From Roseospira marina (GTDB lineage: Bacteria > Pseudomonadota > Alphaproteobacteria > Rhodospirillales > Rhodospirillaceae): a stretch of 64,000 nt of DNA. The position numbers and the translations under genes are program-made. Positions 46,319 through 55,476 of the stretch are shown piece by piece (position 1 is the stretch's first letter; the number at the start of each line of letters is the position of its first letter). The stretch covers positions 116,989-180,988 of the forward strand of contig NZ_JACIGJ010000009.1 of NCBI RefSeq assembly GCF_014197855.1. The letters run 5' to 3'. The notes under the pieces are model-generated. The model was not told the origin of the DNA. It saw only the letters and a list, made by a program, of their open reading frames with translations, and did not search any database.

Positions 46319-47533
46319 TTACCCCACGATCATGTAGCAGCCGTAGGCGACGATCACCGCCGGAATGGCGCTGTAGAGGGTGGCCACGGCCGCCGCCTTG
46401 GGGGCCACCGCAATGGCCGGGAACAAGGCGTCGCCGTCGTTGGAGATGGCGTTGCCCAACTGGGCGGAGAGCGGCACCGCCCCGGCGAGGTAGAGCGACG
46501 TCACGAGGATCTGCGGGCCGCAGCCGGGGATGAGCCCGATGAGCACGCCGACGAGCGGCACGATCGGCGCGGCGGCGGCGAACCAGGCCGCCAAATCGAG
46601 GTTGAAGCCCGACACCGCCAACTCGAACCCGGCGAAGGCGACGATGACCCAGGTGGTCACGAAGCTGGTGGTGTCCACCACGGCGCTGGCGCCGCCATCG
46701 GTCTCGACGTCCCCGCGACCGCGCAACACCCAGAGGGCGAGGGCGCCGACGGCACCCACGACACCCAAGGCGAACACCGGCGCCACACCAAGCGCGGGCT
46801 CCACCCAGGCGTCCGGGTCCATCTGGAACGACAAGGCCAAGCCGATCACTACGCCCGGCGCGAGGATCCACAACCACGCCCGCTCGATCACACGTGCCAC
46901 GGTGCCCACGCCCGCTACCGTTGCGGTGTCCGACCGGTCGCCGCCCGCCGCGCAGTCCATGGGCTCCGCCGAACCGGTGGGGGTGCGGGGCCGCATGAAG
47001 CCCTGGCCGTGCACGGCGTCGATGATCCAGCCGGAGAGGACGCCGACCACCATGCCGACCACGAGCACGAGGGCGGCGACCTCCGGAGCGCGGGCGAGGA
47101 GGAGGAACATCGCGTCGCCCATGGTGGCGGTGAGGGTCGCCACCACGCCGCCGAAGCTGAGGTGCCCGCGTGTGTACTGCGTCAACGCCACGATGGCGCC
47201 GCCGCAGCCCGGGAACGCGCCGAGAAGCGACGCGATGGGCACCTGCCAGCGGGCGTTGCGGCGCAAGAGCGTGCCCAACTCGGTGCCGAGCCCGCGTTCC
47301 GCCACGCCCACGAGCATGAGCGTGCCGGCCACGAACACGGCGACTGAAAGGTAGGCGTCGGACAAGGCCTGGAGCAGAATCCCGGCACCGCCCGGCACGG
47401 CGAGTGCAGCGGCGACAAGGCCAGCCGGCACGAGCGCGCGCTGAGCGATGGGCGAGAGGCGGCTCTGCGGCCCCGCCCCGCCCTGCGGAAGGGTGGACAC
47501 GCGGCGTCCGGCGGCGGCGATCCAGGCAGTCAT
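46319..47533 (-). CDS. Putative 10-TM heavy-metal (manganese) exporter
   Basis: A 404-residue integral membrane protein with about ten helices in two related halves. Each half contains a glycine-cysteine-glycine motif, GAFPGCGGAIVALTQYTRGH in the first and GLIPGCGPQILVTSLY in the second, typical of the putative 10TM heavy-metal exporter family (ArsP_2 type). A hydrophilic loop separates the halves. The start at 47533 has a GGGGTG site; an upstream frame to 47590 is unlikely. Family members are annotated as manganese or arsenic exporters, so the metal is inferred. Confidence 0.8.
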   Translation of the reverse strand: MTAWIAAAGRRVSTLPQGGAGPQSRLSPIAQRALVPAGLVAAALAVPGGAGILLQALSDAYLSVAVFVAGTLMLVGVAERGLGTELGTLLRRNARWQVPIASLLGAFPGCGGAIVALTQYTRGHLSFGGVVATLTATMGDAMFLLLARAPEVAALVLVVGMVVGVLSGWIIDAVHGQGFMRPRTPTGSAEPMDCAAGGDRSDTATVAGVGTVARVIERAWLWILAPGVVIGLALSFQMDPDAWVEPALGVAPVFALGVVGAVGALALWVLRGRGDVETDGGASAVVDTTSFVTTWVIVAFAGFELAVSGFNLDLAAWFAAAAPIVPLVGVLIGLIPGCGPQILVTSLYLAGAVPLSAQLGNAISNDGDALFPAIAVAPKAAAVATLYSAIPAVIVAYGCYMIVG

Positions 47534-47562
47534 GGTGGGCACCCCGTTGTTGAGAGTGACTT

Positions 47563-47576
47563 GCAATATTAATAGC
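47563..47576. promoter_or_regulatory. Candidate Fur/Mur-like dyad upstream of the metal exporter
   Basis: GCAATATTAATAGC is an AT-rich imperfect dyad about 30 bp upstream of the exporter start. It resembles the TGCAAT-type boxes bound by alphaproteobacterial Fur/Mur proteins. The match is loose. Confidence 0.3.
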
Positions 47577-47810
47577 GTGTCCACGGCCATCGATCCAATG
47601 GAATCAATCGTTCATCGCCTTCGAAAAAATCGATTAATTCCCGCCCGCGTTCCGGTCGCAACTTTCGGGGTGGGCAGCGCGACCCGTCCGCGGGTAGAGT
47701 TTACGGCAGCCGCAAACCTCTGGATTTCGGGTGTGTCCACAGGTGCGTCGGGCGTCACGGTCGGCCGTGACCCGGGTTCGGTGTCAGCGGCTTCGAAAGG
47801 GGAGAACGCA

Positions 47811-48527
47811 ATGATCGACACGGCAGCCGACCGGGCCGGATCGGATGGCCTGACGGTTCTGGCGGGCGTGGACGTCTGGACCGGGCAGGATGGTCTGCTG
47901 CCCCGCCTGCTGACGCCGCCCAATCGGGGGTTCCTGATGACCGGCGCCGTCGATCAGGCGCCTGCGATGGCGGAGCGCGCGCGGGCGGTGGCGCGAAACG
48001 GCGGCCTGGCGGCCCTGATGCGGGCGCACGTGGCGTGGCAGGTCGATCTCGCCGGTGCCATTGCGGCCGCGTGTACGGAGCACTGGTCCGGCCTTGAAAC
48101 GCGCCGCGACCGGGTGCGTCTGGCGCTGCACGAGGCCGTGGTCAACGCCTTGATGTACGGCTGCCTCCGGATTGTGTCGCGCCAGCGGGAAACGCGGGTC
48201 GGCTGGATGAACCAGACCTCGTCCATCATGGCGGCGCTGGCGGACCCGGCCCGCGGCGGGTTGCCTATCCTGGTCACGGTAGAGGCCGATCCGGATGCGT
48301 GGCGCTTTCGGGTCGAGGACCCCGGACCGGGTTTCGAGGTGCCCCCGCCCGATGACCGGGGGCCGTGCCTGTCGCCGGAGGGCCTCACGGCGGCCCACGG
48401 GCGCGGCATCGGACTGATGCGTGCCGTTTGCGACACGGTGGACTGGACCGAGGGCGGACGGGTCGTCACCCTGAGGATCCGTCGCGCCGAGGGTGGCGGC
48501 GGACCGGGTGCCTCCGGCGGTCCGTGA
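47811..48527 (+). CDS. RsbW-like histidine-kinase-type ATPase (anti-sigma/serine kinase fold)
   Basis: A 238-residue soluble protein. The N-terminal third (1-75) is of unknown type. The C-terminal two thirds form an ATPase of the HATPase_c_2 type: N-box LALHEAVVNALMYG with Glu108 and Asn112, G1 EDPGPGF (169-175) and G2 HGRGIGLMRAVCDTV. No phospho-accepting HisKA domain is present. Such domains usually act as anti-sigma factors or serine kinases in partner-switching. It precedes two potassium channel genes by 13 bp, an unusual partner. GGGGAG precedes the ATG. Confidence 0.78.
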   Translation: MIDTAADRAGSDGLTVLAGVDVWTGQDGLLPRLLTPPNRGFLMTGAVDQAPAMAERARAVARNGGLAALMRAHVAWQVDLAGAIAAACTEHWSGLETRRDRVRLALHEAVVNALMYGCLRIVSRQRETRVGWMNQTSSIMAALADPARGGLPILVTVEADPDAWRFRVEDPGPGFEVPPPDDRGPCLSPEGLTAAHGRGIGLMRAVCDTVDWTEGGRVVTLRIRRAEGGGGPGASGGP

Positions 48528-48540
48528 GCAGGGAGACGGC

Positions 48541-49440
48541 ATGGCTTGTTCCACCGCGCCTCCGGCGCCCCATGCGGAGCCCGCAACCGCGCCGTCCTGC
48601 GCGTCCCCACCGCCTCCCACGCCGACCCTGCGTCGTCGTGTGGCCCGGCAGCTTGACCCGGGTCTGCGGGCCGAGCCAGGGCTGTCCCGCACGAACATGG
48701 CGGTGTGCGGGCTGATCGTGCTGGCCGTCTTGGTGGCCGTTCTGGGCACGGAAAAGCCCCTGTACGCGCGCTATCAGACCACCTTTCTGGGCGTCGAGGT
48801 CGGGTTGACCGGTCTGCTGGCCCTGGAATACGTGGCCCGCGTCTGGTGCAGCGTGGAGAACCCGGCCTGGGGGGGCTCCCGGTTGCGATATATGTGCACG
48901 CCGGCCGCGTGTCTCGATCTCGCGGCCGTTCTGGTGATCCTGACCACGGCGTTCGCGTCCGAGGGCTTTCTGATGCGGCTCGCCATGCTGTTGCGGGTGT
49001 TGCGCATCGCGCGGATCGGGCGGTTTTCCTCGGCGTTCGACACCCTGGCCGAGGCGGTGTCGTCGCGGGCGATCGACTTGGTTCTGAGCGTCGGGGTGTC
49101 ACTCACGCTTCTCCTGCTGTCCTCGGCCGCGATGTATCTGGTGGAGGCGGACGTGCAGCCGGAGGCCTTCGGGTCGATTCCCCGCGCCATGTGGTGGTCG
49201 GTGGCCACCCTGACGACGGTGGGCTACGGCGACGTCTACCCCGTCACGGTGTTGGGCCGCCTGTTCGCCGCGGTGACGGCGATCACGGGCATCGGCCTGA
49301 TCGCCATGCCCACCGGCATCCTGGCCAGCGCCTTCAGCGACGCGTTCCAGCGCCAGCGTCAGCGCGAGGCGAAGGCCGAGGCCGAAGCCCGCGCGTCGTC
49401 TGGCGCGTCGTCTGGTCCGGCCGGGTCGTCCGGCCCATGA
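48541..49440 (+). CDS. Voltage-gated-like potassium channel (Kv type, six TM)
   Basis: A 299-residue membrane protein. It has a proline-rich N-terminus (1-50), S1-S3 at about 53-140 and a sensor-like S4 with arginines at every third position (Arg146, 152, 155, 158, 161). S5 lies at about 178-201, a pore helix with selectivity filter TVGYGD (226-231) follows, then S6 at about 242-265. The C-terminal tail is alanine/serine-rich and probably disordered. The filter is canonical for potassium. It overlaps the second channel gene by four bases. Confidence 0.9.
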   Translation: MACSTAPPAPHAEPATAPSCASPPPPTPTLRRRVARQLDPGLRAEPGLSRTNMAVCGLIVLAVLVAVLGTEKPLYARYQTTFLGVEVGLTGLLALEYVARVWCSVENPAWGGSRLRYMCTPAACLDLAAVLVILTTAFASEGFLMRLAMLLRVLRIARIGRFSSAFDTLAEAVSSRAIDLVLSVGVSLTLLLLSSAAMYLVEADVQPEAFGSIPRAMWWSVATLTTVGYGDVYPVTVLGRLFAAVTAITGIGLIAMPTGILASAFSDAFQRQRQREAKAEAEARASSGASSGPAGSSGP

Positions 49441-50231
49441 CCCAACCCCTGCCTTTGTCGGTTCGTCTCAAGACCCAGGTGAGCGGCCTGTACCGGGGCG
49501 CGGGCACGCGGGCGCGCCGCTTCCGCTATGGGCTGATGACCTTCGACATCGTCACGATCATGTTCATTGTGGCGACTCAGCCTCTGCCGGCGTCGCCGCT
49601 CATCCTGGTGTTGGATATTCTGATCGGCCTGATCGTGCTCGCCGACCTGATGGCGCGGCTGTGGATTTCTCCGCAGCCCGCCCGGCATCTGCTGCACGCG
49701 ACGACGCTGGCCGACATCGTCGTCGTGTTCTCGCTGCTGCTGGCGCCGCTGCTGGCGGGCAATCTGGCCTTTCTGCGCGTGCTGCGGTTGGTGCGGCTGC
49801 TGCATTCCTATCAGGTGCTGCGCGACCTGCGCCAGGAGACCCCGTTTTTCCGTCACAATGAAGAGGTGATCGTCAGCCTCATCAATCTCGTGACGTTCAT
49901 CTTCGTCTTCACGGCGCTGGTCTTCGAGCTTCAGAGCGAGGCCAACCCGGCGATCACGGGGTATGTCGACGCCCTGTATTTCACCGTGGCGACCCTGACC
50001 ACCACGGGCTTCGGCGATATTACCCTGACCGGGTCGTCCGGCCGGGTTCTGTCGGTCGTCATCATGGTGGTGGGGGTCGCGTTGTTTCTGCGTCTGGTGC
50101 AGACGGTGTTTCGACCGCGCAAGGTCCGGCACACCTGCCCGTCGTGCGGACTGTCTCGCCACGAGCTTGATGCCGTGCATTGCAAGCATTGCGGCGAGAC
50201 CCTGCGAATCAAGACCGAAGGCGACTCGTAA
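49437..50231 (+). CDS. Ion channel of Kv architecture with C-terminal zinc ribbon
   Basis: A 264-residue membrane protein. S1-S3 lie at about 33-108, a short S4 with Arg114, Arg117 and Arg120 follows, then the S5, pore and S6 helices (about 145-222) with filter TTTGFGD (188-194). The phenylalanine variant GFGD still occurs in potassium channels. The C-terminus holds a Cys4 zinc ribbon (CPSCGLSRH and HCKHCGETL; Cys234, 237, 249, 252), rare on such channels. Translation is coupled to the first channel, so a hetero-tetramer is possible. Confidence 0.88.
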   Translation: MTQPLPLSVRLKTQVSGLYRGAGTRARRFRYGLMTFDIVTIMFIVATQPLPASPLILVLDILIGLIVLADLMARLWISPQPARHLLHATTLADIVVVFSLLLAPLLAGNLAFLRVLRLVRLLHSYQVLRDLRQETPFFRHNEEVIVSLINLVTFIFVFTALVFELQSEANPAITGYVDALYFTVATLTTTGFGDITLTGSSGRVLSVVIMVVGVALFLRLVQTVFRPRKVRHTCPSCGLSRHELDAVHCKHCGETLRIKTEGDS

Positions 50232-50236
50232 ACCCA

Positions 50237-50273
50237 GGCGGCGATGAGCCTGACTCATAGCCGCCGTGTTTTT
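50237..50273 (+). terminator. Rho-independent terminator after the channel operon
   Basis: GGCGGCGATGAG (50237-50248) pairs with CTCATAGCCGCC (50254-50265) with one mismatch and a five-base loop, followed by GTGTTTTT. It lies six bases after the channel stop codon. Confidence 0.88.
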
Positions 50274-50318
50274 CACGCCATAAGGCGCGACGGCCGGTCG
50301 GCCTTGCCGCGCTGAGAT

Positions 50319-50354
50319 GAGGCCAAGCTGAGGCAGTTGGCCTCACCTCAGCTT
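50319..50354. other. Two interleaved inverted repeats
   Basis: GAGGCCAA (50319-50326) is complementary to TTGGCCTC (50337-50344), and AAGCTGAGG (50325-50333) to CCTCAGCTT (50346-50354). The arms alternate in order, so RNA could form either stem or a pseudoknot, and on DNA the region is a compound palindrome. It lies just after the channel-operon terminator. Confidence 0.7.
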
Positions 50355-50673
50355 GTTAGAATCCGGACCCGGGCCGACCGAGAAATCCGAGCGCCGCGGT
50401 CGGACAAAAACGCCTTTTGCGGGTGCGGCTGGCGGTCGACGGGCGGTCGACGGTCGGTTCTGGGCCGTCCGGCGACCAGAGGAAACGCGCCGTTTCTGGA
50501 CACGCGCCTCCGGTTCACGGGGCGGGGCGGCTCTCGGCACTCTTAATCCGAGAATGCCGCTGTGCCATAACCAATGGCGCGGTTGCAGCGTGGGGGCATC
50601 CGGCGCATACTTCCGCGTACGGTTCGATCCGGGCGCCATCCGAGCGGCCCTGCCGCCGACGTGGGGCGCTCCA
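50355..50673. other. Non-coding stretch upstream of the response regulator
   Basis: No convincing gene is visible; ORFs here lack family features and ribosome sites. Several short inverted repeats occur, for example GCCAT-AACCA-ATGGC (50566-50580) and GGCACTCT/AGAATGCC (50538-50560), plus an 11-bp tandem duplication. The stretch could hold a structured leader or a small RNA gene. I see no clear promoter or terminator for one. Confidence 0.45.
50431..50452. repeat. Tandem duplication of GGCGGTCGACG
   Basis: Two exact copies of the 11-mer lie at 50431-50441 and 50442-50452, followed by a partial GTCGG. The unit contains a SalI-like GTCGAC palindrome. Confidence 0.75.
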
Positions 50674-50738
50674 GTGAGAGGGACCGGTGAGAGTTGGCAA
50701 TGAGAGTGGCCGGAGAGAGTGGGCAGTGGGAGTGGATA
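50674..50738 (+). repeat. 13-bp minisatellite, five copies, at the start of the response regulator gene
   Basis: Units of consensus GTGAGAGTGGCCA begin at 50674, 50687, 50700, 50713 and 50726, with degenerate neighbours on both sides. Each unit carries a purine-rich GAGAG that resembles a ribosome site, and several begin with GTG or ATG. Because 13 is not a multiple of three, copy-number change would shift any frame reading through the array. Confidence 0.85.
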
Positions 50739-50755
50739 GAGTGCCCAATCGCGCG

Positions 50756-51286
50756 ATGTCCAAGAAACGGGACCAAGTTAAAGAACATCTTCAGGAGCTT
50801 ATGGAAAAGCTCCGGGTCCTTGTTATCGACGACAACAAGTTTTCGCGGTCCCTGCTGAGCACGCAGTTGGCCGGGTATGGCATTCGGGATGTTGTCGAGT
50901 GTGCGGATGGTGTTGAAGGACTCAAATACCTTCAGAACCAACCCATCCATCTGATCCTGCTGGATTACGAGATGACGCCGCTGAACGGGGCGGAGTTTTC
51001 GCGTCTGGTGCGGCGGGATCCGTCGATTCCCAATCCCGAGGTTCCGATCATCATGATCTCGGGGTATTCGGATCTCGCGCACGTGAAAGAGGCGCGGGAT
51101 TCCGGTATCAACGAGTTTCTCGGCAAGCCGGTGTCCGCCGATATCCTGTACCGTCGCATCGGCCACACGCTGCAGAACCCCCGGCCGTTCGTGCGGACCG
51201 ATCATTACGTCGGGCCGCAGCAGCGGGAGGAACGCTCGCTTCGGCCGGCGGACCCGTCCCACTCATCGGCCGGCAACGACGACTGA
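50756..51286 (+). CDS. Single-domain CheY-like response regulator
   Basis: A 176-residue cytoplasmic protein. The receiver domain (20-140) has Asp25, Asp26, phospho-acceptor Asp70 (LILLDYEMTPLNG), Ser102 and Lys124 (GKPV). A basic amphipathic N-terminus precedes it. The tail RPFVRTDHYVGPQQREE resembles the tail of many alphaproteobacterial stand-alone receivers. No output domain is present, so it probably acts by protein contact. The start is uncertain: ATG at 50756 has a weak ribosome site, whereas GTG at 50741 has GGGAG from the minisatellite upstream. No kinase gene is adjacent. Confidence 0.83.
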   Translation: MSKKRDQVKEHLQELMEKLRVLVIDDNKFSRSLLSTQLAGYGIRDVVECADGVEGLKYLQNQPIHLILLDYEMTPLNGAEFSRLVRRDPSIPNPEVPIIMISGYSDLAHVKEARDSGINEFLGKPVSADILYRRIGHTLQNPRPFVRTDHYVGPQQREERSLRPADPSHSSAGNDD

Positions 51287-54537: not shown

Positions 54538-54768
54538 ATGAACAGCGTCACGGGCTCCAGTTCACCCCTGTCCGTTTCGGTGCCCTATGCCGTGGCCCGC
54601 AGCCGCCATAGCGCAATGCAGGCCGTGGCGCATGTAATCAATCTGTGGCGCGTCCGGGCGCGTAGCCGCGCGCAACTGCGGACGCTGGACGACCGCATGT
54701 TGCGGGATATCGGCATGAGCCCAGACGCGGCCGACTCGGAAGTCAGAAAGCCGTTCTGGGTGGCCTGA
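54538..54768 (+). CDS. DUF1127 (YjiS-like) small protein
   Basis: A 76-residue basic protein. The C-terminal 45 residues carry the DUF1127 signature (INLWRVRARSRAQLRTLDDRMLRDIGMSPDAADSE), arginine-rich with the invariant LDDRxLRDIG. Some family members bind RNA and affect mRNA stability in alphaproteobacteria. That role is inferred here. A strong AAGGGAGA site precedes the ATG. It is divergent from the GcvA-like regulator, which may control it, and ends with its own terminator. Confidence 0.88.
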   Translation: MNSVTGSSSPLSVSVPYAVARSRHSAMQAVAHVINLWRVRARSRAQLRTLDDRMLRDIGMSPDAADSEVRKPFWVA

Positions 54769-54864: not shown

Positions 54865-55014
54865 GTCGTTTCCGGCACGACGGCGGCGTCGTGCGTCCCG
54901 CGCCGGCCCGGCGAACGCGGGGCAGCGGCTGGTTGGCACCCGGCGACCATGGTAAAATGGGGAGGAGCACAGGGCGAATAGCCGCTCCCCTGGGAGGCAC
55001 CGGAAGGCGGAACC

Positions 55015-55476
55015 ATGGAACGGTTGCACTGGAAGCAGTGGTTCGAGGTTGGGCACGACACCATCGACTTCGAGCATAAAGTCTTCTTCAGCCTGATTCA
55101 CAAGCTGCAGAATCTGGTCGAGGAGGTTCACGATAAAGACGCGGCGCTTCGTGTTCTCGAGGAAATCTATAAATACGCCGATTTTCATTTTACAAGTGAA
55201 GAAAACGTCATGATAGAAGCCGGGTATGAGGGCTTGGATCGCCACCGCCGTCTTCATCAAAACCTTCTCGCGCTCTTGCGGCAGAACATCGACGACATGG
55301 AAGCCGGCGCGATTGCGGGGCCCGAGGTCGTGACCTTCATGTTCTGGTGGTTCGTCGAACACACCGTCGCCGAGGACCTGGCGATCGCGACCCACGTCAA
55401 GACGCGGATGCTGCGCCAGTTCTTCGAGGACGCCCATCCAAAGCGCGCCCGGCCGAACTTGGACGGTGTGGCCTGA
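55015..55476 (+). CDS. Bacteriohemerythrin
   Basis: A 153-residue four-helix-bundle di-iron oxygen-binding protein. The likely iron ligands are His21 (IDFEHKVFF), His58 and Glu62 (FHFTSEE), His77 and His81 (DRHRRLHQN), His116 and Asp121 (EHTVAED). It can store or sense oxygen, or deliver it to oxygenases, in the cytoplasm. GGAAGGCGGAACC provides the ribosome site. It is a single-gene unit convergent with the FGGY kinase gene. The adjoining genes give no partner. Confidence 0.9.
   Translation: MERLHWKQWFEVGHDTIDFEHKVFFSLIHKLQNLVEEVHDKDAALRVLEEIYKYADFHFTSEENVMIEAGYEGLDRHRRLHQNLLALLRQNIDDMEAGAIAGPEVVTFMFWWFVEHTVAEDLAIATHVKTRMLRQFFEDAHPKRARPNLDGVA

Follow-up and report, generated by a model that had tools for sequence, protein, structure and literature searches.

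The 64,000-nucleotide stretch of the Roseospira marina genome analysed here (hereafter the window; contig NZ_JACIGJ010000009.1, positions 116,989 to 180,988) contains three consecutive genes on the same strand, encoding a predicted RsbW/SpoIIAB-type ATPase (P0001), a putative voltage-gated potassium (Kv) channel (P0002), and a second Kv-type channel with a four-cysteine tail (P0003, the zinc-ribbon channel or ZnKv). The genes are separated by a 13-bp gap and then a 4-bp overlap (Table 1), in agreement with the coordinates given by a first-pass annotation of this DNA. The source genome, a 4.6-Mb draft in 57 contigs (G000), was considered together with five others of the genus (G130, G143, G150, G151, and G152), giving a genus sample of six genomes. 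The gene set is a real, lineage-specific, and novel arrangement of known kinds of parts.

Table 1. Features of the ATPase-channel locus and its flanks, in window positions.
Feature	Position	Strand	Basis
RsbW/SpoIIAB-fold ATPase (P0001), 238 aa, predicted STAS kinase	47811..48527	+	N-box HEAVVNA, G1 DPGPGF, G2 HGRGIG
Kv-type six-transmembrane channel (P0002), 299 aa	48541..49440	+	Ion_trans 87.8 bits, Ion_trans_2 62.1 bits; TVGYGD filter; S4 RVLRIARIGR
Kv-type six-transmembrane channel with Cys4 tail (P0003), 264 aa	49437..50231	+	Ion_trans_2 53.8 bits, Ion_trans 46.0 bits; filter TTTGFGD
Cys4 tail C234xxCGLxRHxxDAxHCKHCG, predicted zinc ribbon	50136..50195	+	cysteine conservation
ATGA stop/start overlap of the channel genes	49437..49440	+	4-bp overlap in 5/5 genomes with both channels
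Exporter gene of the ArsP_2 family, in divergent orientation to the ATPase gene	46319..47590	-	PF11449 385 bits
Receiver-only protein P0004, downstream, not a core part	50687..51286	+	PF00072

Predicted products of the three genes

P0001 matched HATPase_c_2 (PF13581) with 59.9 bits, against a Pfam cut-off of 27.4, and the Pfam scan detected no HisKA domain in it, as the first-pass annotation had stated. The N, G1, and G2 boxes were intact, with E108, N112, D170, G172, G174, G197, and G199 invariant in all eight genus-type sequences, and the confident predicted model exhibited a GHKL fold of the SpoIIAB type. A search of PDB sequences with P0001 returned only two de novo designs (E of 0.04 and 0.5). 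P0001 is predicted to be an RsbW/SpoIIAB-type serine kinase acting on a STAS partner. Residues 1-62 (47811-47996) are predicted to form an N-terminal alpha/beta part, modelled mostly with confidence, which lies outside the SpoIIAB match; counterparts of this part were observed in other alphaproteobacterial relatives.

Both channel proteins carry the marks of the voltage-gated K+ channel superfamily, namely Ion_trans and Ion_trans_2 matches above cut-off, a K+ filter, and S4 arginines (identified by reading the translations), and are predicted to be putative voltage-gated K+ channels. The two selectivity filters and the four tail cysteines reported by the first-pass annotation were present in the translations, in the order described. 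The nearest PDB sequences were KCNQ5 and KCNQ2 for P0002 (1.5e-26) and 1orq for P0003 (3.7e-12), the latter being KvAP, a prokaryotic voltage-gated K+ channel; the AlphaFold2 model of P0003 had a predicted local distance difference test score (pLDDT) of 87.5. Neither protein reached the equivalog cut-off of 300 bits for NF040645, the model of the hyperpolarization-activated K+ channel MVP (72.8 bits for P0003 and 35.5 bits for P0002).

The stop codon of the Kv gene and the start codon of the ZnKv gene overlap identically in all five genus genomes holding both. Translational coupling is one established meaning of such overlaps and is likely here; because of the same overlap, the products of the two channel genes are likely to assemble together.

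In the ZnKv tail, the four cysteines, H242, D245, and H248 were conserved in all of the 200 nearest relatives of P0003, a set in which the same protein may count twice, under a locus id and a protein id. No Pfam model reached this conserved tail at cut-off, the best of the zinc-ribbon models being Zn_ribbon_3 (14.1 versus 27.0). The tail likely binds zinc, and the four conserved cysteines are the sole basis for a possible role in zinc or redox sensing. ZnKv is widespread in Alphaproteobacteria, having been found in 27 of the 289 genomes sampled from this class, and each of the 28 copies in this sample had a CxxC...CxxC tail. ZnKv records were also observed in some Gammaproteobacteria, e.g. Methylophaga and Glaciecola.

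ZnKv is usually a solo gene: at 79 of the 80 best loci, it had no P0002-type partner, which weakens the pairing of the two channels proposed in the first-pass annotation. Nor was an ATPase of the P0001 type seen near the channel at 79 of these 80 loci in the DNA available, the upstream flank being shorter than 1 kb at six of them and the downstream flank short at others. Recurring gene clusters beside solo ZnKv genes covered at most 15 loci, frames over the channel itself aside, and seem to reflect synteny between closely related genomes. At P0002-type loci outside the genus, neither the ATPase nor the zinc-ribbon channel was found within about 1.5 kb (0 out of the 19 fetched). No paper on a zinc-ribbon-tailed Kv family was present among the literature matches listed. 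This unnamed family is the most general yield of the analysis. Its members are small bacterial channels in which one can ask whether potassium flow is gated by a metal or redox site.

Gene order and neighbours within the genus

The ATPase gene was present in all six genus genomes and was followed by the Kv and ZnKv genes in four (G000, G143, G130, and G151), with an ATPase-Kv spacing of 13, -4, 21, and 48 bp in G000, G143, G130, and G151, respectively. This recurrence, with the channel overlap shared by five of five genomes, speaks for more than chance. The interpretation in the first-pass annotation is partly supported: the set recurs in relatives, but the ATPase lies apart from the channels in the two remaining genomes, which weakens it by the refutation test that the annotation itself named. 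In G150 (assembly 88% complete, in 750 contigs), the ATPase gene and the Kv-ZnKv pair, whose genes again overlap, occupy different contigs, the pair adjoining ychF/pth-like genes. In G152, for which no P0002-type Kv gene was found, the ATPase gene is alone, and a solo ZnKv gene, likewise next to ychF/pth-like genes, is located at a distance of about 46 kb. The ychF and pth assignments were made by reading translations. Both genomes have ArsP_2 divergently upstream of the ATPase gene and a convergent AICARFT (purH-type) gene next downstream.

Around the channel-linked sets, the outer flanks vary. The upstream flank carries an amidase gene in G000, F1-ATPase genes (read from translations) in G143, and a dehydrogenase gene in G151. 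Downstream, G000 and G143 have a receiver gene, and G151 has one for a DctM transporter. The gene order has lasted through this change of outer flanks, since the ATPases of the three other channel-linked genomes share just 41-45% identity with P0001. The receiver protein P0004 was considered as a core part and rejected, because no genomes other than G000 and G143 have it in this position.

In the ATPase tree, midpoint-rooted for drawing only, a branch with 100/100 support separates G150, G152, P0132, P0134, and P0135 from the remaining sequences (G000, G143, G130, G151, P0006, P0007, P0129, P0133, and P0136). Database clusters suggest further ATPase/ZnKv pairs linked on common contigs: P0006/P0016, P0007/P0012, P0129/P0019, and P0133/P0015, for which the longest contigs of the paired clusters were equal in length (54,355, 152,786, 89,381, and 4,875, respectively). 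Of these, the P0129/P0019 pair adds no independent case, both proteins being identical to those of G130. A fifth pair sharing a contig, P0131/P0023, is the unlinked case of G152. We rejected the view that the three genes form a system conserved widely, since the full set was seen only in the genus, in one branch.

The Rfam search of the window gave no match at the gathering score. Elsewhere in the window, a single-domain hemerythrin gene is located at 54982-55473 (+), and a 68-residue DUF1127 protein at 54562-54768 (+) corresponds to the 3' portion of a longer open reading frame.

STAS and phosphatase partners of the ATPase

Outside the genus, we considered the 22 best-scoring loci of more distant relatives, each from a different genome, out of 45 non-genus genomes with a match. 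A STAS match was present within about 1.5 kb of the ATPase in 21 of the 22 fetched loci, and PP2C in 18; every locus had one or the other, sometimes as one fused frame. Neither was found at the ATPase loci of the genus (0 out of 6), and the usual partner is therefore missing from the locus. As the first-pass annotation had pointed out, STAS and sigma genes are lacking nearby: neither family was detected among the 12 Pfam-scanned window neighbours, the whole window and genome not having been scanned for sigma factors.

The R. marina genome contains five STAS matches, all on contigs other than that of the window. One of these, at C4:342741-343076 (L187 2742-3404, -), is an orphan STAS gene, beside which no kinase gene was recognised. 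It is present in all six genus genomes, the five other proteins being 48-71% identical (E <= 9.1e-26); in the family, 42 of 73 genomes gave a match at E <= 1e-3, with a best value of 7.2e-11 outside the genus. The FIDSSG motif was kept in all six proteins, at the position of the phosphorylated serine of RsbV-type proteins (PMC3999984, PMC8256260). By co-occurrence and elimination only, this orphan STAS protein is likely the partner of the ATPase.

Interpretation and known systems

At about even chances, we favour an operon-like cluster in which a predicted partner-switch kinase, with its STAS partner encoded elsewhere, and a co-translated Kv pair are joined by shared expression. Most likely, the ATPase is expressed with the channels and is not itself a channel component; it would be co-transcribed with them, common expression being the least demanding link between kinase and channel. 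In such an operon, the levels of the switch and of the potassium pathway would change in step. The P0002-type Kv gene appears to have been placed before the usually solo ZnKv gene with a start-stop overlap, which would provide matched amounts of the two subunits. The older neighbour of the ATPase seems to be the divergent exporter gene. Unphosphorylated STAS would bind the ATPase and, once phosphorylated, would release it, leaving it free for some further target, as discussed for the sigma-less RbaVW pair (PMC3999984).

Several observations weigh against shared expression with an unlinked STAS partner. A pattern search of positions 47400-50800 found no sigma-70-like promoter or terminator. The STAS pairing relies on co-occurrence in six related genomes, in which many genes are genus-wide anyway, and another STAS protein could serve P0001, namely that of a module on contig C1 of the same genome, where a STAS gene precedes a HATPase-PP2C gene in whose translation we also read a receiver domain. 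A membrane PP2C gene on C16 (L190 412-3479), followed by a gene for what we read as an HD-GYP-type-looking protein, was rejected as a constant phosphatase partner, because only 3 of the 6 genus genomes, the source genome included, have a close copy of full length, while G151 has a 43% partial match; for this reason no phosphatase partner was identified. Finally, a physical complex would likewise be compatible with the close spacing of the ATPase and Kv genes, which overlap in G143.

Such a complex would have the ATPase regulate the channel itself, by binding the tails of a Kv/ZnKv hetero-tetramer whose opening would be set by the ATP state or the STAS partner switch. The ATPase gene immediately precedes the channel genes in 4 of the 6 genomes, overlapping the Kv gene by 4 bp in G143, and has kept this place though the outer flanks examined differ. 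As the usual adjacent STAS is missing at the locus, the ATPase may have acquired a different partner. However, G150 and G152 have the ATPase without adjoining channels and ZnKv elsewhere, and no such ATPase was found in the DNA available at 79 of the 80 ZnKv loci or at any of the 19 P0002-type loci outside the genus. We regard this explanation as quite unlikely. The more specific version, in which the ATPase would dock on the hetero-tetramer as a control subunit, the unlinked STAS protein freeing or blocking it and the zinc ribbon serving as a docking or sensing plate, is less likely still, because the adjacency holds in four of six genomes and is absent in two having both the ATPase and ZnKv. 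If true, a stress switch would set potassium flux directly, through a kinase recruited as a channel control subunit.

The ATPase could instead work with the divergent ArsP_2 exporter, the downstream channels being passengers of the ATPase promoter. ArsP_2 is the most constant neighbour of the ATPase, divergent from it in five of the six genus genomes, which are all five in which ArsP_2 was found; it is also rare, with matches in 4 of the 150 genomes of the order, the source genome included (E <= 1e-20). Yet in G130 the ATPase and channel genes are preceded by an aminotransferase gene, the genome giving no ArsP_2 match (E <= 1e-20), and outside the genus no ATPase gene adjoins either of the two ArsP_2 loci detected. 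We regard this association as unlikely. The last alternative, neighbourhood inertia after one chance rearrangement in one clade, with no functional link, accords with the restriction of the full set to one branch of one genus and with the occurrence of both channel types apart elsewhere, but fits poorly with an order that outlasted outer-flank changes among such divergent ATPases and with the same channel overlap in five of five genomes. Its probability seems as low as that of channel regulation by the ATPase.

With regard to known channels, KCNQ-type Kv channels provide the closest solved sequences to P0002, which is short by comparison and without the calmodulin-binding tail of KCNQ. The closest solved sequence to P0003 is KvAP, in which we know of no comparable Cys4 tail. 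Eukaryotic Kv T1 domains also carry cytoplasmic zinc, at an N-terminal site between subunits, whereas the ribbon of P0003 is C-terminal and predicted to lie within one chain.

The known targets of partner-switch kinases are sigma factors and a few others, and a stable genetic association with ion channels would extend this range; we found no paper joining partner-switching, a potassium channel, and an anti-sigma factor. P0001 resembles the anti-sigma kinases SpoIIAB and RsbW in its modelled fold and ATP-binding motifs, but has about 62 additional N-terminal residues and no adjacent sigma or STAS gene. In contrast to the classical rsbVW(-sig) operon, an adjoining STAS gene was found at none of the six genus loci, and a sigma gene in none of the 12 scanned neighbours. 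A precedent is RbaVW/RbaY of Rhodobacter capsulatus, whose RbaW is an alphaproteobacterial RsbW-type ATPase without an adjacent or identified sigma factor (PMC3999984). There, however, rbaW overlaps the STAS gene rbaV (PMC3999984), whereas P0001, with no STAS gene adjacent, is followed by two channel genes.
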